DNA from: Maribacter algicola | GTDB lineage: Bacteria > Bacteroidota > Bacteroidia > Flavobacteriales > Flavobacteriaceae | Reading direction: 5' to 3' | Length of the DNA stretch: 64,000 bases | Assembly (NCBI RefSeq): GCF_003933245.1 | Contig: NZ_QUSX01000001.1 | Span: forward strand, 1,116,001 to 1,180,000 | Shown: positions 2,661-11,225 of the stretch, piece by piece | Layout of the letters: every line of letters starts with the position of its first letter | How positions within the stretch are numbered: the stretch's first letter is position 1 | The notes under the pieces: generated by a model | The model's database searches: none | Seen by the model: only the letters and a program-made list of their open reading frames with translations | What the model was told of the DNA's origin: nothing | Program-made: the position numbers and the translations under genes

Positions 2661-3857
2661 TTACTTGTAATAAGAGTTGAATTCCGTCTTAGTATTAATA
2701 TACTTTACCAAATGCTTGTAAAACTTTACAAATCCAGCACTAAAAAGCGTCACGGCAATAATGGGAGCGGACTTGATTACAATCCCATTTTTAAACAGGG
2801 AGATGGTCAACCAAACAAAGAGTACGGTAAAAACGAATAAAATGGCCTTACGTACGGTCCTATAACTGATCTTTAATTTCGTGTCCAACCAAATGAAGTA
2901 GGCACTGGCCAAAAAGCTGAGTAAAAAGGTTAGAATAACAATCCAAAACAAAGGAACTTCATATAAAAAGGTATTGTATAGGATCATGGAAATGATATTG
3001 GCATGTATGACCATACCATACATATCCGGAATGCTTTTACCGGCCGTTACCTTGTTCAAAGGGGTAAAGTGTTTGTCTTCCACATCAAAGGGATTTCCGG
3101 TAGGGCTGCCCAAATAACCGAACAAAACAATTTTGTCCTTCACCATTTTTTTATTGGGAAAAGAAAGAAAATCCTTTAGCGGAAAATGGACAAATCCCAA
3201 GTAATCACTCTTATAGTTTATCAATTTGGGTTTCGATAATTTTTTGGGATAACCTCTAGCATACCATTTGTCTGTACTCATATACGACTTGGCTACGGCC
3301 ACGGGAAATGCCTCAAAAGTATTTTCCTGAAATACATAGGTGGGGGTAAATTCACGAACTACCGCATCCTGGTAGCCAAAATTGTAGTTGACATAGCCCT
3401 GTTTTCCATCACCCACAAAAAACGGATGATTCAAAAAGAATTGATTTTCCTTTAAAATATAGCCCGATATTACTCTTTTATCATTGAGTACTCGGGCCAG
3501 AAGTGTATCGGTCTTTGATTTATCAAAATGTTGCAACATCACGTCAAAACCAACGACTGTTGGATTTTCAGCAAGCACATTTTGCAACCCTTCCAAAATA
3601 GTCTCCCGGTTTTCATGCTCGATATTGATTAATACAATATTAGAATCCATATCCAAATTGGGATTCATTTGCTCACTGTAGTAAATATCCAAAAAACTAA
3701 AATCCTCCAGGGCCTTTTTAAGGGGATTAAAAAAGTTTAGGTTTACAAAGAGTAGTGATAACAAAAAACAGGTCATCAAGGAAAGAAGGGTGCTAAATAA
3801 GGCATCCCTCCAAAGTAATTTTCTTTTAGAACGTTTCGGTACAAGTTCGGAATCCAT
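2661..3857 (-). CDS. CHASE2-domain membrane sensor A, no output domain
   Basis: The 398-residue product has one membrane segment near residues 16-39 and an extracytoplasmic CHASE2 domain at ~45-295. Three C-terminal membrane segments follow (~298-320, 333-352, 358-380), then a tail of about 20 residues. CHASE2 domains usually sense an extracellular signal for an attached cyclase or kinase; here no such module is present. The conserved motifs VGFDVML, FGYLGSP, EDKHFTP and VIHANI recur in the second CHASE2 protein at 4634-5851, so the two are paralogues. It is the last gene of a five-gene operon and starts 12 bp after the FecR-like gene. Confidence 0.88.
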   Translation of the reverse strand: MDSELVPKRSKRKLLWRDALFSTLLSLMTCFLLSLLFVNLNFFNPLKKALEDFSFLDIYYSEQMNPNLDMDSNIVLINIEHENRETILEGLQNVLAENPTVVGFDVMLQHFDKSKTDTLLARVLNDKRVISGYILKENQFFLNHPFFVGDGKQGYVNYNFGYQDAVVREFTPTYVFQENTFEAFPVAVAKSYMSTDKWYARGYPKKLSKPKLINYKSDYLGFVHFPLKDFLSFPNKKMVKDKIVLFGYLGSPTGNPFDVEDKHFTPLNKVTAGKSIPDMYGMVIHANIISMILYNTFLYEVPLFWIVILTFLLSFLASAYFIWLDTKLKISYRTVRKAILFVFTVLFVWLTISLFKNGIVIKSAPIIAVTLFSAGFVKFYKHLVKYINTKTEFNSYYK

Positions 3858-3869
3858 GTAGGCCTTTGT

Positions 3870-4661
3870 TTAATAGGGGCAAAATTTATAATCCGCACAG
3901 ATAGCTTCCTTAATCTTGGCCTCTGGATATCCCAATAACGTAAACGTTTTAATCAAGACATCCATTTCCTTTTTCAATTCCTGAAAAGTCTCATCATCCA
4001 ACAAAGTAAGTGTGTTATATTTTATGTCCTTCAAACTGGGAAATGGCTCCAGACTAATGGCCCATTCATATTGTCTTCCCTTTTTCAAAAGATTATTGTC
4101 CACATAAAGTAGCATAGAATCTGAAGCGGTTCCTATTTTAGTAATGTGGTCTCCATCATGCTGTTTTAAAAAAAGATAAACCAAATCGCTTTTTGAATTG
4201 TTCTCCCATCGAAAAAATATACTGGGCTGATATAATTTGGCACTATCCACTGGAAAATGTTTGATGATCGTCCTATCTTCCCTATACACTACCCCGGCTT
4301 CCTGCTTACTTTTTCGGCGGTTTGTGAACTGCGTCCACACATACGTAAAATACTTTCTTGTAAATGAAGTTTGGTTCAATTGTACCTTGTTTTTCGAAAT
4401 ATCCTGAAAAACAAATGCATTTGGGCCTGACAAAGCAAAAATTTCCCCTGTCTGGTTTACGAGCGTGACCTTTTCATGATCCGCAAGTCTCAATGTATCC
4501 AAAGCCTCAAAATATACGCCTCTATTGGCCTTTTTGTTCGAAGAAAATTTAGGCTCGCCCGTTTTTTGATACACATAGTAGCTTTCCTGACCGAAACATT
4601 CGGCAGTAAACACTGTACACAAAATGATGAAAATCAATCGTGAAAAAAGAATCCTTCCCAT
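3870..4661 (-). CDS. Secreted FecR-like / Ig-like periplasmic protein
   Basis: The 263-residue product has a signal peptide ending near residue 24 (ECFGQ). Residues ~28-95 look like a FecR-type beta domain, with ordered short strands including LRLADHEKVTLVNQTG and a small-residue turn ALSGPNAFVF. A second beta region at ~135-205 contains SIFFRWENNSKS and RQYEWAISLE, as in the Ig-like domain that often follows FecR. The helical C-terminus holds two cysteines in CADYKFC. Its start lies 28 bp inside the end of the CHASE2-B gene and its stop is 12 bp before CHASE2-A, so it is locked between the two sensors. The FecR assignment rests on pattern only. Confidence 0.75.
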   Translation of the reverse strand: MGRILFSRLIFIILCTVFTAECFGQESYYVYQKTGEPKFSSNKKANRGVYFEALDTLRLADHEKVTLVNQTGEIFALSGPNAFVFQDISKNKVQLNQTSFTRKYFTYVWTQFTNRRKSKQEAGVVYREDRTIIKHFPVDSAKLYQPSIFFRWENNSKSDLVYLFLKQHDGDHITKIGTASDSMLLYVDNNLLKKGRQYEWAISLEPFPSLKDIKYNTLTLLDDETFQELKKEMDVLIKTFTLLGYPEAKIKEAICADYKFCPY

Positions 4662-5851
4662 TTAAATCGTTTATATAAATAATGTGCCAACTTTTTATAA
4701 AACCCTATCAGACCAATACTAAAAACCATCACAGCGGTTATGGAAGCTGTTTTAAAAAGTAGTTTTTGCCTGAAAAGCAACAAGGCCACCCAAACAAAAA
4801 ATACGATAAAAAATAGTTGTACGATATTCAACCTAAGTATATAACTGGCCAACTGTCTTTTATTCAACCAAATGAAGTAACAAAGGGCCATATAGGTCAA
4901 TACGATCGTCAACAGGATACGTATCCAATTGGGAACCACTTTTATAAAATTACCTTCAATAATCATTTGGACAATATTCGCGTGAATGACCAACCCAAAG
5001 GTATCTGGTGGACTTTTCCCCACAAATCTGGGATTCATCGGGGTAAAATGTTTGTCCTCCAAATCAAATCGGTGTTGAATGGGATTACCCAAATATCCTA
5101 CCAAAATAATTTTATCCTTTATCAAAGGAGAAAACTCTCCGTTCATAATTTCATCATATTCCAAAACAAGGAAAAAATCCCTATTGCCGGAATAATTTAT
5201 GGGCCTGTCGATGGATAGATAGGATTCCATTCCAATGTCCCAATCCTGGGCCATAAATTTCTTCGATACGGCTGTTCCAAAAGCTTCCAAGATGGTATCG
5301 TTTTTTTTATAGACACCCCTAAAATTTCTTATTACCGCGGATTCATCATCAAAATTGAAATTCGAGTATCCCAAAGCCACACCTTCTTCAAGTATATTTT
5401 TATTTGAAATAATTCTTTTATCATCATTTAGAACATAGGCGGCGACTATGTTTTCACTTTTAAGAAATTCCGAAAGAAAACGATCCCATACGGGATCTTC
5501 CAAATCTTTAAATATGACATCGACACCGATCACTTTTGGTTGGGATTCCTGTATTTTTTGTAGCATCCCTGCTATCTCCTTTCTATTCCGCCTGTCAACA
5601 TTTACCAAAATGATGTTCTCATTTATATTTGGATCATTCGTTTCTAGCTTTTCAGCATAGTACATATCCAAATAGCTAAAATCCTTAAACGCATTTTTAA
5701 AAGGACTAAAAAAATTAAGGCTAATACCTATCCAAGAGACTATGCACAACACGGTAAAGGCGAAAATCATACACAAAAATGCCTCTTTGAACAAATTCCT
5801 GTTCCTCATAAAAAAGTTGTAGAAATACCTTTTTTTATTTGATTCCTGCAT
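4634..5851 (-). CDS. CHASE2-domain membrane sensor B, no output domain
   Basis: This 405-residue paralogue of the CHASE2 protein at 2661-3857 has the same plan: a short cytoplasmic N-terminus, one membrane segment (~24-45), an extracytoplasmic CHASE2 domain (~50-300) and three closing membrane segments with a short basic tail. Shared signatures are VIGVDVIF, VGYLGNP, EDKHFTPMN and VIHANIVQM. No cyclase, kinase or protease domain is fused, so its signal must pass to a separate protein or through the membrane helices. The last 28 bp overlap the start of the FecR-like gene. It begins 42 bp after the lipoprotein gene. Confidence 0.88.
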   Translation of the reverse strand: MQESNKKRYFYNFFMRNRNLFKEAFLCMIFAFTVLCIVSWIGISLNFFSPFKNAFKDFSYLDMYYAEKLETNDPNINENIILVNVDRRNRKEIAGMLQKIQESQPKVIGVDVIFKDLEDPVWDRFLSEFLKSENIVAAYVLNDDKRIISNKNILEEGVALGYSNFNFDDESAVIRNFRGVYKKNDTILEAFGTAVSKKFMAQDWDIGMESYLSIDRPINYSGNRDFFLVLEYDEIMNGEFSPLIKDKIILVGYLGNPIQHRFDLEDKHFTPMNPRFVGKSPPDTFGLVIHANIVQMIIEGNFIKVVPNWIRILLTIVLTYMALCYFIWLNKRQLASYILRLNIVQLFFIVFFVWVALLLFRQKLLFKTASITAVMVFSIGLIGFYKKLAHYLYKRFKWEGFFFHD

Positions 5852-5893
5852 GTAGAAAACAATTAAGAGGTTTGTTAATTGCCCCCCTTTGAT

Positions 5894-6388
5894 CTATTTT
5901 TTATTCGATAAATTTTTACGGAAAAAAGGAAAACCGGAGGTAACGCTGATCACCTCTCTTCCAAAAAGGTCCATAAAGGCGATTTTATTTTCATTTTCAT
6001 CAAGCAGTATGGTCAACTGTTCATCATTGTTTTTTAATATGAACTGCTGCTGAGGATCAAAAGATGAATTTGAATTCTGTGGATCCCAAACATAATTGGT
6101 ATCGTCAATAAGCACTTGTTTTAATTCCTGAGTACTGTTGATATTCAAAGTGTCCAGTACTTTTAGCTGATTGTAATATTCATTTTCTGTTCCTTCGATA
6201 AGCGTTTTGACCAAATCAATTCTAATGACTGTATTGGCATTTTCAATTTTACCGAATCTTTCCGGGTTGATCAAGGCCTTTATTTTTGTACTTTCTATCG
6301 TATTGGAAGCTTGGATTTTTTCCGATTTCTGCGAAGACATACAGGAATACATCAATAGAACGACCATCAAAAAAGCTAGTTTTTGCAT
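5894..6388 (-). CDS. Small lipoprotein of the CHASE2/peptidase operon
   Basis: The 164-residue product has a lipoprotein signal with lipobox MYSC (Cys at about residue 16). The mature part carries no recognised domain. It is acidic and Asn/Gln-rich, with a NSNSSFDPQQQF stretch and a C-terminal segment ITSVTSGFPFFRKN-like in character (phenylalanines followed by basic residues). Its start lies 1 bp after the stop of the papain-like peptidase gene, so the two are almost certainly co-translated. A role as accessory factor or inhibitor of that peptidase is inferred from position only. Confidence 0.8.
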   Translation of the reverse strand: MQKLAFLMVVLLMYSCMSSQKSEKIQASNTIESTKIKALINPERFGKIENANTVIRIDLVKTLIEGTENEYYNQLKVLDTLNINSTQELKQVLIDDTNYVWDPQNSNSSFDPQQQFILKNNDEQLTILLDENENKIAFMDLFGREVISVTSGFPFFRKNLSNKK

Positions 6389-6389
6389 T

Positions 6390-7835
6390 CTAGGACCTTT
6401 TAATATCCAATATCATCATCGCCAATGAACCTTTATCGAATTCTGCTTTAAAACTCATTTTATCCTTACTCAACTTCATCGCTTCTTTTTTGATTAGCTT
6501 ATCATCAAAAATCACGTACAATCGATCTAATAACGTACCATCCAATTCTTGAAGTTTGGATTGCACCTCCTTCATGTCTATTTTTTCCAAAGAAAAAACG
6601 ACTATGGTATAGTCCTTTTCCACATCCTTGCTTAATCTCGCATAGGCCTTAGCTCCTTTTGGCGCCGCAGGCAATATAACTTCGGACTTATCGGAATTTA
6701 TGAACGGGCTTATGGAGTCCTTATGGGGAAATAATGGAGAAAACTCATTATCCGAATCCATCCCAAAAACATATACATAAGCGGGTTGATTTACTTTAGT
6801 TACCATACGATACCTAGTTCCGGTACCATAAACATCTTCCGTAATATAATCTCCAATACTTTCATCCTCTTTTTCAATGACCACATCCTGAGCACCAAAT
6901 ACGGATCCGGTATATTCGCCCTTTTCATTGCGTACGTTCATAGGTTCGTTACTTCTAAGGATAAAGTCGACCTCTCCAGCCAAAATCTGTTTTTCCTCTT
7001 TTTTGACTTTTAAGGGTATCATTTCAAAGGCATATCTTGTATACTCGGCAAAATCTGAATACCTGATCCACATAAACCCATCATTTCCCCATGTAGGCCC
7101 CCAACTATTTACAATTTCAAAAGAACCGCCGTACTTATCATCGTCATATCCAATTACACACATGGCATGCCCCCCGGTTGTCCCCAAATTATCAGGGACA
7201 TAAACATTCTTGGCACTTTGAAATGCATTATCTACCATAAACCCGATAACCACGGGATTTCCATTTAGAAGTGAACGTTTTACACCATCTACTTTAAACT
7301 CCTCCGACTCATCGGAACCAAATATTCTTGCAAAATCCTTTATCTTGAATCGCTCGGCAGAACTATACAATTCTTCAGGTATCTCTGTATCACACATAAC
7401 ATTATAATCTTCGTAGTAGGGCACGCCCTTTTCCACCATGGCTTCCATGGCCTTGCCAATGAAGGCACCTCCCCCACAGTTATAATCGTTGTCAACGTTG
7501 GAATGTAGATAGGTAAACACCGGAGCAAAAGCACCCCGGGATATGGCCGTTGAATCCTTAATGTTATATAACCTGGACTCCAGAATGGTCCTGCCGTAGT
7601 ATGCGGTTGCCCATCCTACACAAGTACTATATCCCCCCTGGTTTTTTATGGGAGGAACGAAGCTTTTTAAAGAAGACGAGGTAAATTCCGTTACCACATC
7701 CTGGAAAGCAACATTTTTTGCTTTAACGGGTGTATTTTCATAAGCTTCATCATCAAATAAGAGTCCTGTACTACGTTGGGTTTGTGAGTACCCTAATACA
7801 GAAATAAAAAATAAGATCAAGGTGAGATTTCTCAT
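6390..7835 (-). CDS. Secreted papain-like (C1) peptidase with DUF4384-like C-terminal domain
   Basis: The 481-residue product has a signal peptide ending near residue 17. The papain catalytic set is visible: oxyanion Gln66 in IKNQGG, nucleophile Cys72 in STCVGWA, His223 in GGHAMCVIGY and Asn243 in IVNSWGPTWG. There is no obvious inhibitory propeptide beyond ~40 residues. Residues ~285-400 resemble DUF4384, including VNQPAYVYVFGMD and a SPLFPHKD segment; that domain is best known at the C-terminus of bacterial caspase-like proteins. It is the first gene of the operon with a lipoprotein, two CHASE2 sensors and a FecR-like protein. I saw no canonical promoter in the 143 bp upstream. Confidence 0.9.
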   Translation of the reverse strand: MRNLTLILFFISVLGYSQTQRSTGLLFDDEAYENTPVKAKNVAFQDVVTEFTSSSLKSFVPPIKNQGGYSTCVGWATAYYGRTILESRLYNIKDSTAISRGAFAPVFTYLHSNVDNDYNCGGGAFIGKAMEAMVEKGVPYYEDYNVMCDTEIPEELYSSAERFKIKDFARIFGSDESEEFKVDGVKRSLLNGNPVVIGFMVDNAFQSAKNVYVPDNLGTTGGHAMCVIGYDDDKYGGSFEIVNSWGPTWGNDGFMWIRYSDFAEYTRYAFEMIPLKVKKEEKQILAGEVDFILRSNEPMNVRNEKGEYTGSVFGAQDVVIEKEDESIGDYITEDVYGTGTRYRMVTKVNQPAYVYVFGMDSDNEFSPLFPHKDSISPFINSDKSEVILPAAPKGAKAYARLSKDVEKDYTIVVFSLEKIDMKEVQSKLQELDGTLLDRLYVIFDDKLIKKEAMKLSKDKMSFKAEFDKGSLAMMILDIKRS

Positions 7836-7978: not shown

Positions 7979-9355
7979 CTACACAAAGGTCCTCTTGATT
8001 TCCCTTCTCAAAAAATAACCGGTAACGATGGTTGCCAGGACATCGGCGATGGGGAAAGAGAGCCAAACACCCAATTCGCCAAACAATTTTGGAAGAACCA
8101 GAATCAAGGGAATGAAGAAAAAGCCCTGTCTGGAAAGTGTCAATAATAGCGCAGGAATGGCCTTGCCTATAGCCTGAAAATAGGCCGCCCCTATTAACTG
8201 TAGTGCTATGATTGGAGTTGCCGCAAAAACCCAACGCATCGCATTAGGGGCATTTTCCAAAACAAAAGCGTTCGTATTTACATCCTCTGGTGACATTCCA
8301 GGCTTATCGCTCAGGAAAAGTGCCGTAATTGCTTCGGGAAAAATCATGAGCCCTATGAAAACAATGGTCGCTAAAAGAGAGGCGTAGGTAATTGCCGTGT
8401 TGATGGTCTTTCGTACCCTATCGTATTTTCGGGCCCCATAATTAAATCCGGCAATGGGCAAAAATGCTTGGGTAACCCCAAACACGGGGAATAAGGCAAA
8501 CATCAACATTCTGCCAATGATGGCATACACCGCCACCATTGCCTCACCGCCCAAAGAAAATAGGATATTGTTCATAATCAAGTAAATGACACTTACCACT
8601 GCCTGTCTGGCTAAAGTGACAAAACCTAAGGACCCCATTTCCTGTACAACCGGCATGTCCAATCCCAAATGTTTCCATTGGATCTTCATTTCGGAATGCC
8701 TGGAAAAGAAAAAGTAACCAACATAAAGGAAACATAATATATAGCCAATCGTTGTTGCCCAGGCTGCTCCTGTCATACCCCAATCAAAAACATAGATAAA
8801 AACATAGTCCATCAGTAGGTTGCCTATGGATGGAATGATCATGGCAATCATGGCAAACTTTGGCTTCCCTTCGGCCCTAATTACCGTATTACCCATCATA
8901 CAAAGCGCCAAAAAAGGAACTCCGTACAGGACTATGGTGTAATAAATTTTTGCTGGATCGTAAATGGCCCCTTTTCCTCCAAAAGCGGGAATGATGGACT
9001 CAACAAAAGTGAGGCCGACAATGACCATGGAAATGGTTATAATCAGGGTAAGGGTGATTTGATTTCCGAAAGTCGTGAAGGCTTTTTCCTTGTTTTCGGC
9101 ACCAAGGGCCCTAGAGATGATACTAGATCCGCCTACACCAATGGCCATGCCCAAAGCCCCTATAAAAAAAGAAACGGGAAGCACAACATTGATGGCCGCT
9201 ATGGCTATGGAACCTATCCAGTTTCCAACAAAAATGGAATCGACCAATACATTCAAGGACATCACAAGGATTCCTATACTGGCAGGAACTGCCTGGCCTA
9301 CCAATAGCTTTCCAATGGGTTGTTTACCTAAATCTTCCGATGTGAATTTGGCCAT
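7979..9355 (-). CDS. MATE family multidrug / cation exporter
   Basis: This is a 458-residue polytopic membrane protein with about twelve hydrophobic segments in two related halves, as in MATE antiporters that expel drugs with Na+ or H+ influx. Typical segments are PIGKLLVGQAVPASIGILVM near the N-terminus, VGGSSIISRALG in the first half and PIAGFNYGARKYDRV in the second. I chose the ATG at 9355 because a longer frame would need a TTG start three codons upstream. It begins 29 bp after the DUF3050 gene on the same strand and may share its transcript. The substrate cannot be read from the sequence. Confidence 0.92.
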   Translation of the reverse strand: MAKFTSEDLGKQPIGKLLVGQAVPASIGILVMSLNVLVDSIFVGNWIGSIAIAAINVVLPVSFFIGALGMAIGVGGSSIISRALGAENKEKAFTTFGNQITLTLIITISMVIVGLTFVESIIPAFGGKGAIYDPAKIYYTIVLYGVPFLALCMMGNTVIRAEGKPKFAMIAMIIPSIGNLLMDYVFIYVFDWGMTGAAWATTIGYILCFLYVGYFFFSRHSEMKIQWKHLGLDMPVVQEMGSLGFVTLARQAVVSVIYLIMNNILFSLGGEAMVAVYAIIGRMLMFALFPVFGVTQAFLPIAGFNYGARKYDRVRKTINTAITYASLLATIVFIGLMIFPEAITALFLSDKPGMSPEDVNTNAFVLENAPNAMRWVFAATPIIALQLIGAAYFQAIGKAIPALLLTLSRQGFFFIPLILVLPKLFGELGVWLSFPIADVLATIVTGYFLRREIKRTFV

Positions 9356-9384
9356 AGGCCTCAATCTGTTTTCTTAAAAATGCC

Positions 9385-10179
9385 CTAGACCAAAGAAGAG
9401 GCATTTTTCTTTTGGTTTTGAATGGCTTCGCTTATGTAATCCCATAACTCAATTCTTCGCTGAAGTGCTTTTTTGGAAATATCTAGTACAGCCTCCCATT
9501 TTGATTTTTCATCCCCACATAGTTCCATCATCATTTTCAGGGAAAGCGGACCATGATCATCGCCATCCAGTTCTATATGTCTTCTCAGATAGTATTCCAA
9601 CTTGGGATATAGAGATGCCTTTCCATTGCTCTCGATAATCTTTAGGAACATATCTGGAATAAGTTCCTCCCTTCCAAAGGTGAAGGCCGCTGCTATTTCA
9701 TGAGGTTTGCCATCCGCTATTACATCAAAAGTAAATTGCATAAATTCCTTGACGGCATCGGGCAATCCTGATTGTAAGATACTTGTCTGGATATCACCCG
9801 ATTTTTTAACCGTATCAATAAACGCTTCAATAGGGTACGTCTTGGCATCCACTTCCTTCATGGCTTCTAGATACATCTCAAAATGGCTCCTAAAGTTTCC
9901 GGCCTCGTCCCTATCTGTCTCCTCTTCCAACACAATCTCATTGATAAACCGGGCCGTATTTGTATTACTGCAAGGTATCCAAGGTGTTGTAACACAGGTT
10001 AGGTTTATCTGTAATGCTTTTAGCAAGGACATAAAGTCCCATACCGCATATATATGTCCTTCCATAAAAAGCCTAACATCCTCAATAGTGGAGAGCTCGC
10101 TATAAAGCTGATGATTTTTTAAGGCCGACCTCAACGGGTCTAAGGCCTCCTCAATATGTCTAATATTCTTTTCGAGCAT
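9385..10179 (-). CDS. DUF3050 family protein
   Basis: The 264-residue, largely helical protein matches DUF3050: an HIYAVWDFMSLLK motif near residue 42, RFINEIVLEEETD near residue 75 and a YYLRRHIELDGDDHGP motif near residue 200. These His and acidic residues resemble those of heme-oxygenase-like helical bundles, where they could bind a metal. I chose the ATG at 10179, 11 bp after hemH, over an upstream ATG at 10236 that would overlap hemH by 46 bp and add residues unlike the family. Its position directly after ferrochelatase suggests co-expression, but a heme-related role is only inferred. Confidence 0.85.
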   Translation of the reverse strand: MLEKNIRHIEEALDPLRSALKNHQLYSELSTIEDVRLFMEGHIYAVWDFMSLLKALQINLTCVTTPWIPCSNTNTARFINEIVLEEETDRDEAGNFRSHFEMYLEAMKEVDAKTYPIEAFIDTVKKSGDIQTSILQSGLPDAVKEFMQFTFDVIADGKPHEIAAAFTFGREELIPDMFLKIIESNGKASLYPKLEYYLRRHIELDGDDHGPLSLKMMMELCGDEKSKWEAVLDISKKALQRRIELWDYISEAIQNQKKNASSLV

Positions 10180-10190
10180 ATCTTTATTAT

Positions 10191-11225
10191 TTAATAATGA
10201 GGCAATACCCCATCCTTTTCCCACGAGTCTATCCATTGCGCCATCAAGGAGACCCAGGCATCGTTGTCATTCAAACAAGGTATGTGTTTGTAGGCTTCCC
10301 CCCCAGCTTCCATAAACTGGTGTTTCCCTTCCATGGCGATTTCCTCCAAAGTTTCCAAACAATCCGCTACAAAGGCAGGGGTAACCACCGCCAACTTCTT
10401 CTTGCCCTCCTTCGGAAATCGTTCAAACTCAAAATCCGTATAGGGTTTCAGCCATGGGTCATTGGGCAAACGGGATTGGAAGGACACGCTTACTTTATCT
10501 TCCGGTAGGTTCATCTGGGTGCGGACCAGCTCGGTCATTTTATAGCATTGGTGGCGATAACAGGTATGGTGGGCTACAGAATTTGTATGGCAACAGGAGC
10601 CATCGATTTTACAATGGAACTTTGTTGGGTCCGATTTTCGGATATGCCGTTCCGGAATTCCGTGATAGGAAAAAAGAATGTGGTCATATTCAAAATCCTT
10701 CAAACCCTCCTTTATGGAATCCGAAAGGACTCGGATATAGTCGGTATTTTTATAAAATGCCGGTAAGGTGGTAATTTTTAGTTCAGGAAAAAAGGCATCC
10801 TTTACTTCCAACGCCTTTACTACCACGGTTTCATAGGAAGACATGGCATAATGTGGGTATAAGGGCACCAACAAAACCTCGACCACACCCTTGTTCTTAA
10901 GCTCTTGAAGCGCATTTTTAATGGTCATGCTTCCATATCGCATGCCCAGTGCCACAGGAAGTTTAGTTTGTTCGCGGAGCTTATCCGTAAACCGTTCCGA
11001 GAGCACGATCAAAGGCGAACCTTCTTCCCACCAAATCTTGGAATAGGCCTCTGCCGATTTTTTAGGTCGGGTTTGCAAGATGATTCCCCTAACAAGGATG
11101 TTACGCAATAACTTTGGAACGTCGATTACGCGTTCGTCCATAAGAAACTCGTCCAAATACGGTTTTACGTCCTTTGCCGTGGGACTATCAGGGGATCCCA
11201 AATTAACCAGTAAAACTCCTTTCAT
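10191..11225 (-). CDS. hemH: Ferrochelatase
   Basis: This 344-residue enzyme inserts Fe2+ into protoporphyrin IX, the last step of protoheme synthesis. Visible family motifs are GVLLVNLGSPDSP at the N-terminus, GMRYG near residue 98, FSYHGIPERHI with the catalytic His near residue 192, a following Cys/His-rich stretch (FHCKIDGSCC), and QSRLPNDPWLKP near residue 245. Length fits bacterial ferrochelatases. It is divergent from the MscS gene, with 161 bp between them. It lies ~3.4 kb from the main heme cluster and on the opposite strand, so it is probably a separate transcription unit with the DUF3050 gene. Confidence 0.97.
   Translation of the reverse strand: MKGVLLVNLGSPDSPTAKDVKPYLDEFLMDERVIDVPKLLRNILVRGIILQTRPKKSAEAYSKIWWEEGSPLIVLSERFTDKLREQTKLPVALGMRYGSMTIKNALQELKNKGVVEVLLVPLYPHYAMSSYETVVVKALEVKDAFFPELKITTLPAFYKNTDYIRVLSDSIKEGLKDFEYDHILFSYHGIPERHIRKSDPTKFHCKIDGSCCHTNSVAHHTCYRHQCYKMTELVRTQMNLPEDKVSVSFQSRLPNDPWLKPYTDFEFERFPKEGKKKLAVVTPAFVADCLETLEEIAMEGKHQFMEAGGEAYKHIPCLNDNDAWVSLMAQWIDSWEKDGVLPHY

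Follow-up and report, generated by a model that had tools for sequence, protein, structure and literature searches.

The stretch of DNA analysed here, called the window, comprises 64,000 nucleotides (nt) of Maribacter algicola (contig NZ_QUSX01000001.1, positions 1,116,001 to 1,180,000), and our subject is an operon on its minus strand, at 7835-2661, that brings together an exported (predicted) papain-like peptidase, a small putative lipoprotein, two CHASE2 proteins and a fourth-gene product whose family we name FEC (Table 1). An initial annotation, made from the sequence alone, had described five minus-strand genes here; the coordinates of the open reading frames (ORFs) confirm this, with gaps of 1, 42, -28 and 12 nt in gene order. 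The genes are real and closely spaced. Comparison with the Maribacter flavus copy (L021; L and G numbers are our own for loci and genomes) gives, from gene 1 to gene 5, ratios of nonsynonymous to synonymous substitution (dN/dS) of 0.07, 0.21, 0.11, 0.15 and 0.17, which indicates purifying selection on all five.

Table 1. Features of the papain-CHASE2-FEC operon in the window.
Feature	Position	Strand	Basis
Gene 1, C1 (papain) peptidase with C-terminal DUF4384, 481 amino acids (aa), exported (predicted)	6390..7835	-	Pfam
Peptidase_C1 domain, residues 59-259, with Gln66, Cys72, His223, Asn243	7059..7661	-	Pfam and alignment
DUF4384, residues 336-394; also carried by the partner caspases of L051, L094, L104	6654..6830	-	Pfam
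Gene 2, small putative lipoprotein, 164 aa	5894..6388	-	Cys16, linkage to the papain
Gene 3, CHASE2-A	4634..5851	-	PF05226 2.6e-22, hydropathy
Overlap of the CHASE2-A and FEC frames, 28 nt	4634..4661	-	ORF coordinates
Gene 4, FEC, 263 aa, exported (predicted) partner of CHASE2	3870..4661	-	Structure model, profiles
Gene 5, CHASE2-B, 398 aa, paralogue of CHASE2-A	2661..3857	-	PF05226 2.6e-21, separate tree branch, hydropathy

The proteins of the operon

The C1 peptidase and the two CHASE2 proteins are as first annotated, all above the curated cut-offs of Pfam, and an NCBIfam scan of the five proteins added nothing to Pfam. Gene 1 matches PF00112 (4.4e-13, 50.2 bits against a cut-off of 20.7) and PF14326, that is DUF4384 (3.5e-7), and in a profile comparison the solved structure nearest to it is 3ois, a cysteine protease (E 1e-20). 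Its four catalytic residues are all present. By profile and by these intact residues, the peptidase is assigned to the papain family. By eye, its N-terminus looks like a signal peptide; no segment was flagged there by a crude scan of hydropathy. The same scan flagged no segment in gene 2, which matched no Pfam family and no relative in the PDB; all 6 aligned sequences, among them the window copy, have the lipobox-like Cys16.

Both CHASE2 proteins have one hydrophobic segment before the domain and about three after it, followed by a short tail (hydropathy). Neither carries a cytoplasmic output domain, PF05226 being the only Pfam match above cut-off in each. They belong to types that form separate branches of the CHASE2 tree, and either one is lost in some loci, so that on the tree the two types are old paralogues. 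A search across the phylum with the CHASE2 profile of Pfam matched 124 of 345 genomes, mostly through longer proteins of about 700 aa.

The label FecR-like, first given to gene 4, could not be upheld. FEC matched no Pfam family; FecR is not among 25 of the 27 families listed for 20 FEC-family members; PF04773 (FecR), searched against the FEC gene in 12 genomes, had no match at E up to 1; and hhalign of FEC against 12 anti-sigma-type FecRs of the same sample returned a probability of 0.1. The protein has a hydrophobic N-terminus by hydropathy scan. Its structure model is poor (predicted local distance difference test, pLDDT, 53), with long stretches of the N-terminal half below 50, and the sole region matched, residues 134-226 with a possible fibronectin-III-like part at 134-224, lies in this low-confidence model.

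Conservation of the neighbourhood

Within the family, 12 of 397 genomes, counting that of the window, have a FEC gene; 9 of the 12 have it with a papain and 3 with caspase or CHAT genes. Together with Maribacter flavus (L021), an uncultured Flavobacteriaceae (L022) and Muricauda sp. CAU 1633 (L023), the 9 make up 12 papain-FEC loci. A weak FEC match in a further genome, G398, was set aside, as it falls in an unrelated 654-aa ORF.

Papain, lipoprotein, CHASE2 and FEC occur together in all 12 papain-FEC loci, and these counts argue that the arrangement of the operon is not due to chance. The order is less constant than the neighbourhood itself: peptidase-lipoprotein-CHASE2-FEC-CHASE2 is exact in only 4 of the 12 (window, L021, L022, L040). 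Among the others, L045 has the window order plus one inserted M48 metallopeptidase gene, L023 is without the last gene and L043 is missing the first of the two CHASE2 genes; the series in L044 and L049 is peptidase, lipoprotein, M48, ion channel, CHASE2, FEC; in L042 the M48, CHASE2 and FEC genes come after a gene of the opposite strand, and in L041 and L050 the peptidase-lipoprotein-M48 genes converge on CHASE2-FEC. The constant set is thus peptidase, lipoprotein, one CHASE2 and FEC, the second CHASE2 and the M48 gene being optional. A need for two CHASE2 proteins is not supported, as 7 of the 12 loci have a single one.

CHASE2 and FEC are the core pair of the module. In 11 of the 12 papain loci the frame of the upstream CHASE2 shares 22-28 nt with that of FEC, which suggests coupled translation; in three caspase- or CHAT-linked loci the overlap is 31 nt (L047), 25 nt (L048) and 4 nt (L051). 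A broader FEC profile matched 29 of 325 genomes of the class, our own included, and 20 of the 28 others were fetched: CHASE2 stands beside FEC in 15 of these 20, on the same strand in 13, and a C14 or CHAT gene is close to FEC in 3 (L094, L104, L110). In one genus, g464, the pair is fixed with no caspase, CHAT or papain gene adjoining (L100, L101, L102, L105, L109, L111, L112); in L101 the neighbour is an 858-aa protein whose start is MutS-like by eye.

All 12 FEC-linked papain genes have the lipoprotein gene as a neighbour; at the other 48 papain-DUF4384 loci it is absent.

A papain where relatives have a caspase

The window links CHASE2 to a cysteine peptidase that is C1, not C14 or CHAT, and C14 has no match in the window genome. 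Outside the papain clade, the nearest CHASE2-FEC pairs adjoin C14 caspase or CHAT genes. In the CHASE2 tree, 17 papain-linked rows (support 89) join L047, which is CHAT-linked, and L048, which is C14-linked, at 100; the CHAT gene of L047 sits on the strand opposite to its CHASE2-FEC. In the FEC tree, which has some long branches, 12 papain-linked, 6 caspase- or CHAT-linked and 2 unlinked rows make up one branch of 20 (98), and the remaining 18 rows include a single protease-linked one (Fisher test, 18/20 against 1/18, 2e-7, for rows that are not independent). The H-C dyad is present by alignment in the caspases of the CHASE2-FEC loci.

Two more distant loci have the layout of the operon with a caspase. 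In L051 (G402) the gene for an exported (predicted) C14 protein ending in DUF4384 (29.4 bits against a cut-off of 27) lies 1 nt ahead of CHASE2, which overlaps FEC by 4 nt; in L094 (G910) the C14 protein encoded ahead of CHASE2 and FEC, likewise exported (predicted), ends in a DUF4384 match of 25.4 bits, just below 27, and a further caspase gene comes after them. In both, C14-DUF4384, CHASE2 and FEC are consecutive on one strand. They share with the window the layout and the DUF4384, CHASE2 and FEC families, and differ from it in that the catalytic domain is C14, not papain, and that there is no lipoprotein gene.

The same exchange can be read from the side of the peptidase. We scored 60 papain-DUF4384 loci in six frames, counting a partner as linked within 8 kb; a greedy ORF caller dropped three C1 loci (L080-L082) that the six-frame count has, and 40 of the C1 places listed were fetched, weaker or partial ones being left out. 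Both PF00112 and PF14326 matched in all 12 scanned members of the papain alignment (A4). Twelve loci are FEC-linked, 12 C14-linked (10 immediately adjacent) and 1 CHAT-linked. In the papain tree the FEC-linked papains form one branch (support 99), nested in a set of 24 rows (93) to which 10 of the 12 C14-linked papains belong as well; the other 36 rows are mostly unlinked (midpoint root). The Q-C-H-N residues are complete in 12/12 FEC-linked, 10/12 C14-linked, 33/35 unlinked and 1/1 CHAT-linked papains. The proposal that a papain stands in the caspase's place, made in the initial annotation, is therefore supported both from the receptor side, by the CHASE2 and FEC trees, and from the peptidase side, by the papain tree.

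In one lineage, the papain-DUF4384 proteins lack the catalytic cysteine (L025 7740-9356, L026 7941-9314 and L027). Those of L025 and L026 directly adjoin caspases with the His-Cys dyad intact, and the contig of L027 is too short for a neighbour; in L024 the caspase next to the papain also has its catalytic cysteine, by alignment. As only this lineage shows the cysteine-less form, a general reciprocity of activity loss between papain and caspase was dropped. Mutual exclusion of the two per genome is likewise not general: C14 is found in 4/9 papain-FEC genomes, in 4/4 caspase- or CHAT-linked genomes and in 5/20 other genomes.

Proposed mechanism

We put at about 0.5 the probability that the operon encodes a membrane-receptor-linked module of periplasmic proteolysis, in which a papain took the place of a caspase in the clade of the window. 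CHASE2 and FEC, co-produced from overlapping frames, would together form a receptor sensing in the periplasm, and since CHASE2 is without a cytoplasmic output domain, the response may be delivered in the periplasm or the membrane. The receptor would hold or switch an exported cysteine peptidase. This would be of caspase type (C14 or CHAT), often with DUF4384, in the ancestral and the most distant versions; in the window clade a papain-DUF4384 protein, whose relatives are encoded beside caspases, would fill the place. The papain form would come with a lipoprotein of its own, possibly an inhibitor or an anchor; half of its loci also have an M48 metallopeptidase gene. The staphopain-staphostatin gene pair is a precedent for a protease with a neighbouring inhibitor gene. 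Gene order, linkage, clade structure and intact catalytic residues are the established part of this proposal; cell compartment, complex formation, gating and the direction of the swap are what we infer from them.

Several observations weigh against the proposal. DUF4384 is above the cut-off in L051 only and below it in L094 and L104, and the caspases of L104, the C14-DUF4384 one (25.2 bits) included, are encoded on the other strand, two ORFs away. L046 and L048 have the caspases closest to the papain clade, and these show a WD40-type domain or no further domain, and no DUF4384; the FEC of L046 and the CHAT fragment of L047 are at contig ends. The row C14-DUF4384, CHASE2, FEC was not refound in relatives of its bearers (G402 1/70, G910 1/5, G875 1/12, each time the genome itself). 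Many CHASE2-FEC pairs have no adjacent peptidase, 35 of the 60 papain-DUF4384 loci have no FEC, C14 or CHAT neighbour, and the C14 genes of the 4/9 papain-FEC genomes lie elsewhere in the genome. The direction of the swap, finally, has to be deduced, because both tree roots are midpoints.

The comparison suggests, at the level of sequence, that within one module a protease of this kind can be exchanged for another in bacteria. More tentatively, and with the odds slightly against it, the scheme may apply to a class of modules in the Bacteroidia: exported, receptor-gated protease modules based on the overlapping CHASE2 and FEC genes, with an executioner exchangeable between unrelated folds of cysteine peptidase (C14, CHAT or papain) and with DUF4384 and the receptor constant, the window operon being the papain form with a dedicated lipoprotein. 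Bacterial caspase-type proteases have mostly been studied as cytoplasmic enzymes, and how they are switched is a standing question. If the receptor is indeed kept while the protease fold changes, then the receptor, and not the caspase fold, would define the system, and four or five genes of marine flavobacteria would offer a small genetic system for the gating of exported cysteine peptidases.

Alternative explanations

Two of the alternatives differ in the outcome, repair or death: the M48 genes argue for quality control, and the patchy distribution and the caspase link argue for a conditional lethal or defence role. Under quality control, the papain, with M48 where present, would degrade misfolded periplasmic or outer-membrane proteins, CHASE2-FEC would be a stress gauge, and no death would be involved. 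In 6 of the 12 papain loci M48 genes separate the lipoprotein gene from CHASE2-FEC; these 6 loci hold nine distinct M48 ORFs, all with HExxH and several with TPR, Sel1 or TonB_C regions. The comparison here is with E. coli BepA, a periplasmic M48-TPR metallopeptidase reported to be concerned with LptD, which the M48 genes with TPR or Sel1 repeats resemble; the operon of the window has no such gene. The M48 matches are, however, partial, no M48 gene adjoins in the other 6 loci, that of the window included, and the module, with 9 papain-type loci in 397 family genomes, is rare, unlike a housekeeping system. We hold this explanation unlikely, if still worth weighing. In BepA-like systems we know of no counterpart of the CHASE2-FEC pair or of the papain.

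Abortive defence or self-killing, in which the exported peptidase would hit the cell's own envelope once CHASE2-FEC senses an attack, would account for the occurrence of FEC in so few family genomes (and in 0/2 same-genus genomes listed), for the exchange of caspase, CHAT and papain partners and for the ion-channel gene that overlaps CHASE2 in L044 and L049 and stands beside a caspase in L054. We nevertheless hold it improbable: the five proteins drew no match from the PADLOC models (E up to 0.1), the MATE and ferrochelatase flank common to the window, L022 and L040 leaves no obvious island, and there is no sign of mobility, the searches having returned distant relatives only. That a plain scavenging protease lies by accident near unrelated membrane genes is very improbable. 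The 35 unlinked papain-DUF4384 relatives do show that this type of enzyme can work alone, but the association with lipoprotein, CHASE2 and FEC holds in 12/12 loci across genera, despite reordering and insertions, and a type IX sorting domain (Por_Secre_tail PF18962, TIGR04183) was not found in the papain by Pfam and NCBIfam scans.

Relation to known systems

Receptor-linked caspase-like proteolysis is known; what is new in the window operon is the exchanged catalytic domain, a papain. Trichodesmium has a metacaspase fused to CHASE2 (PMC3501461), and EACC2-caspase proteins have variable CHASE2 C-termini (PMC8195603). These share with the window a caspase-type peptidase, or here its papain counterpart, tied to a CHASE2 domain with one transmembrane segment before it and three after. 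They differ in that the caspase is fused to CHASE2 and is placed in the cytoplasm by the authors, whereas the peptidase of the window is separate from CHASE2, exported (predicted) and a papain. The BiofilmReg operon of Burkholderia (PMC5192318) encodes a LysM-FecR protein and a CHASE2 histidine kinase. Like the operon studied here, it sets the gene of a secreted protein beside that of a membrane sensor with CHASE2; its CHASE2, however, comes with a kinase output and with a response regulator, whereas the CHASE2 proteins of our operon lack an output domain and FEC has no FecR match in Pfam. DUF4384 on cyanobacterial orthocaspases is already known from this literature (among PMC3501461, PMC7475262, PMC5192318 and PMC8195603).

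No system joining CHASE2 with a papain was found in a full-text literature search, whose coverage left out most subscription journals and all bioRxiv preprints. Where the two are mentioned together, it is for different systems. The search returned nothing that joins CHASE2 with a caspase and FecR, with CHAT, or with a peptidase in "Flavobacteri", and the row C14-DUF4384, CHASE2, FEC is not named in the literature found.

Neighbouring genes

Ion-channel genes (PF00520) lie at 11432-12136 in L044, 7347-8060 in L049 and 4819-5640 in L054. The first two overlap CHASE2, by 4 and 8 nt; the third adjoins the caspase of a papain-caspase locus.

In the window, a convergent cluster on the plus strand (3-2653) ends 8 bp from the operon. 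It encodes three proteins: one that has a type IX secretion tail, a putative lipoprotein of 233 aa and a third of 380 aa. The first and the second have relatives adjoining the operon in L021, L022, L023, L040 and L045, and the 380-aa protein has them in L021, L022 and L043; as they recur beside the operon in other loci, the cluster may belong to the system. On the other side (7979-11225) lies the flank of MATE transporter and ferrochelatase genes that the window has in common with L022 and L040 (names by eye except MATE). L023 has on this side a gene like that of a tRNA-modification GTPase (by eye), and since its flank differs from those of the window, L022 and L040, either the locus has moved or the flank has been rearranged.

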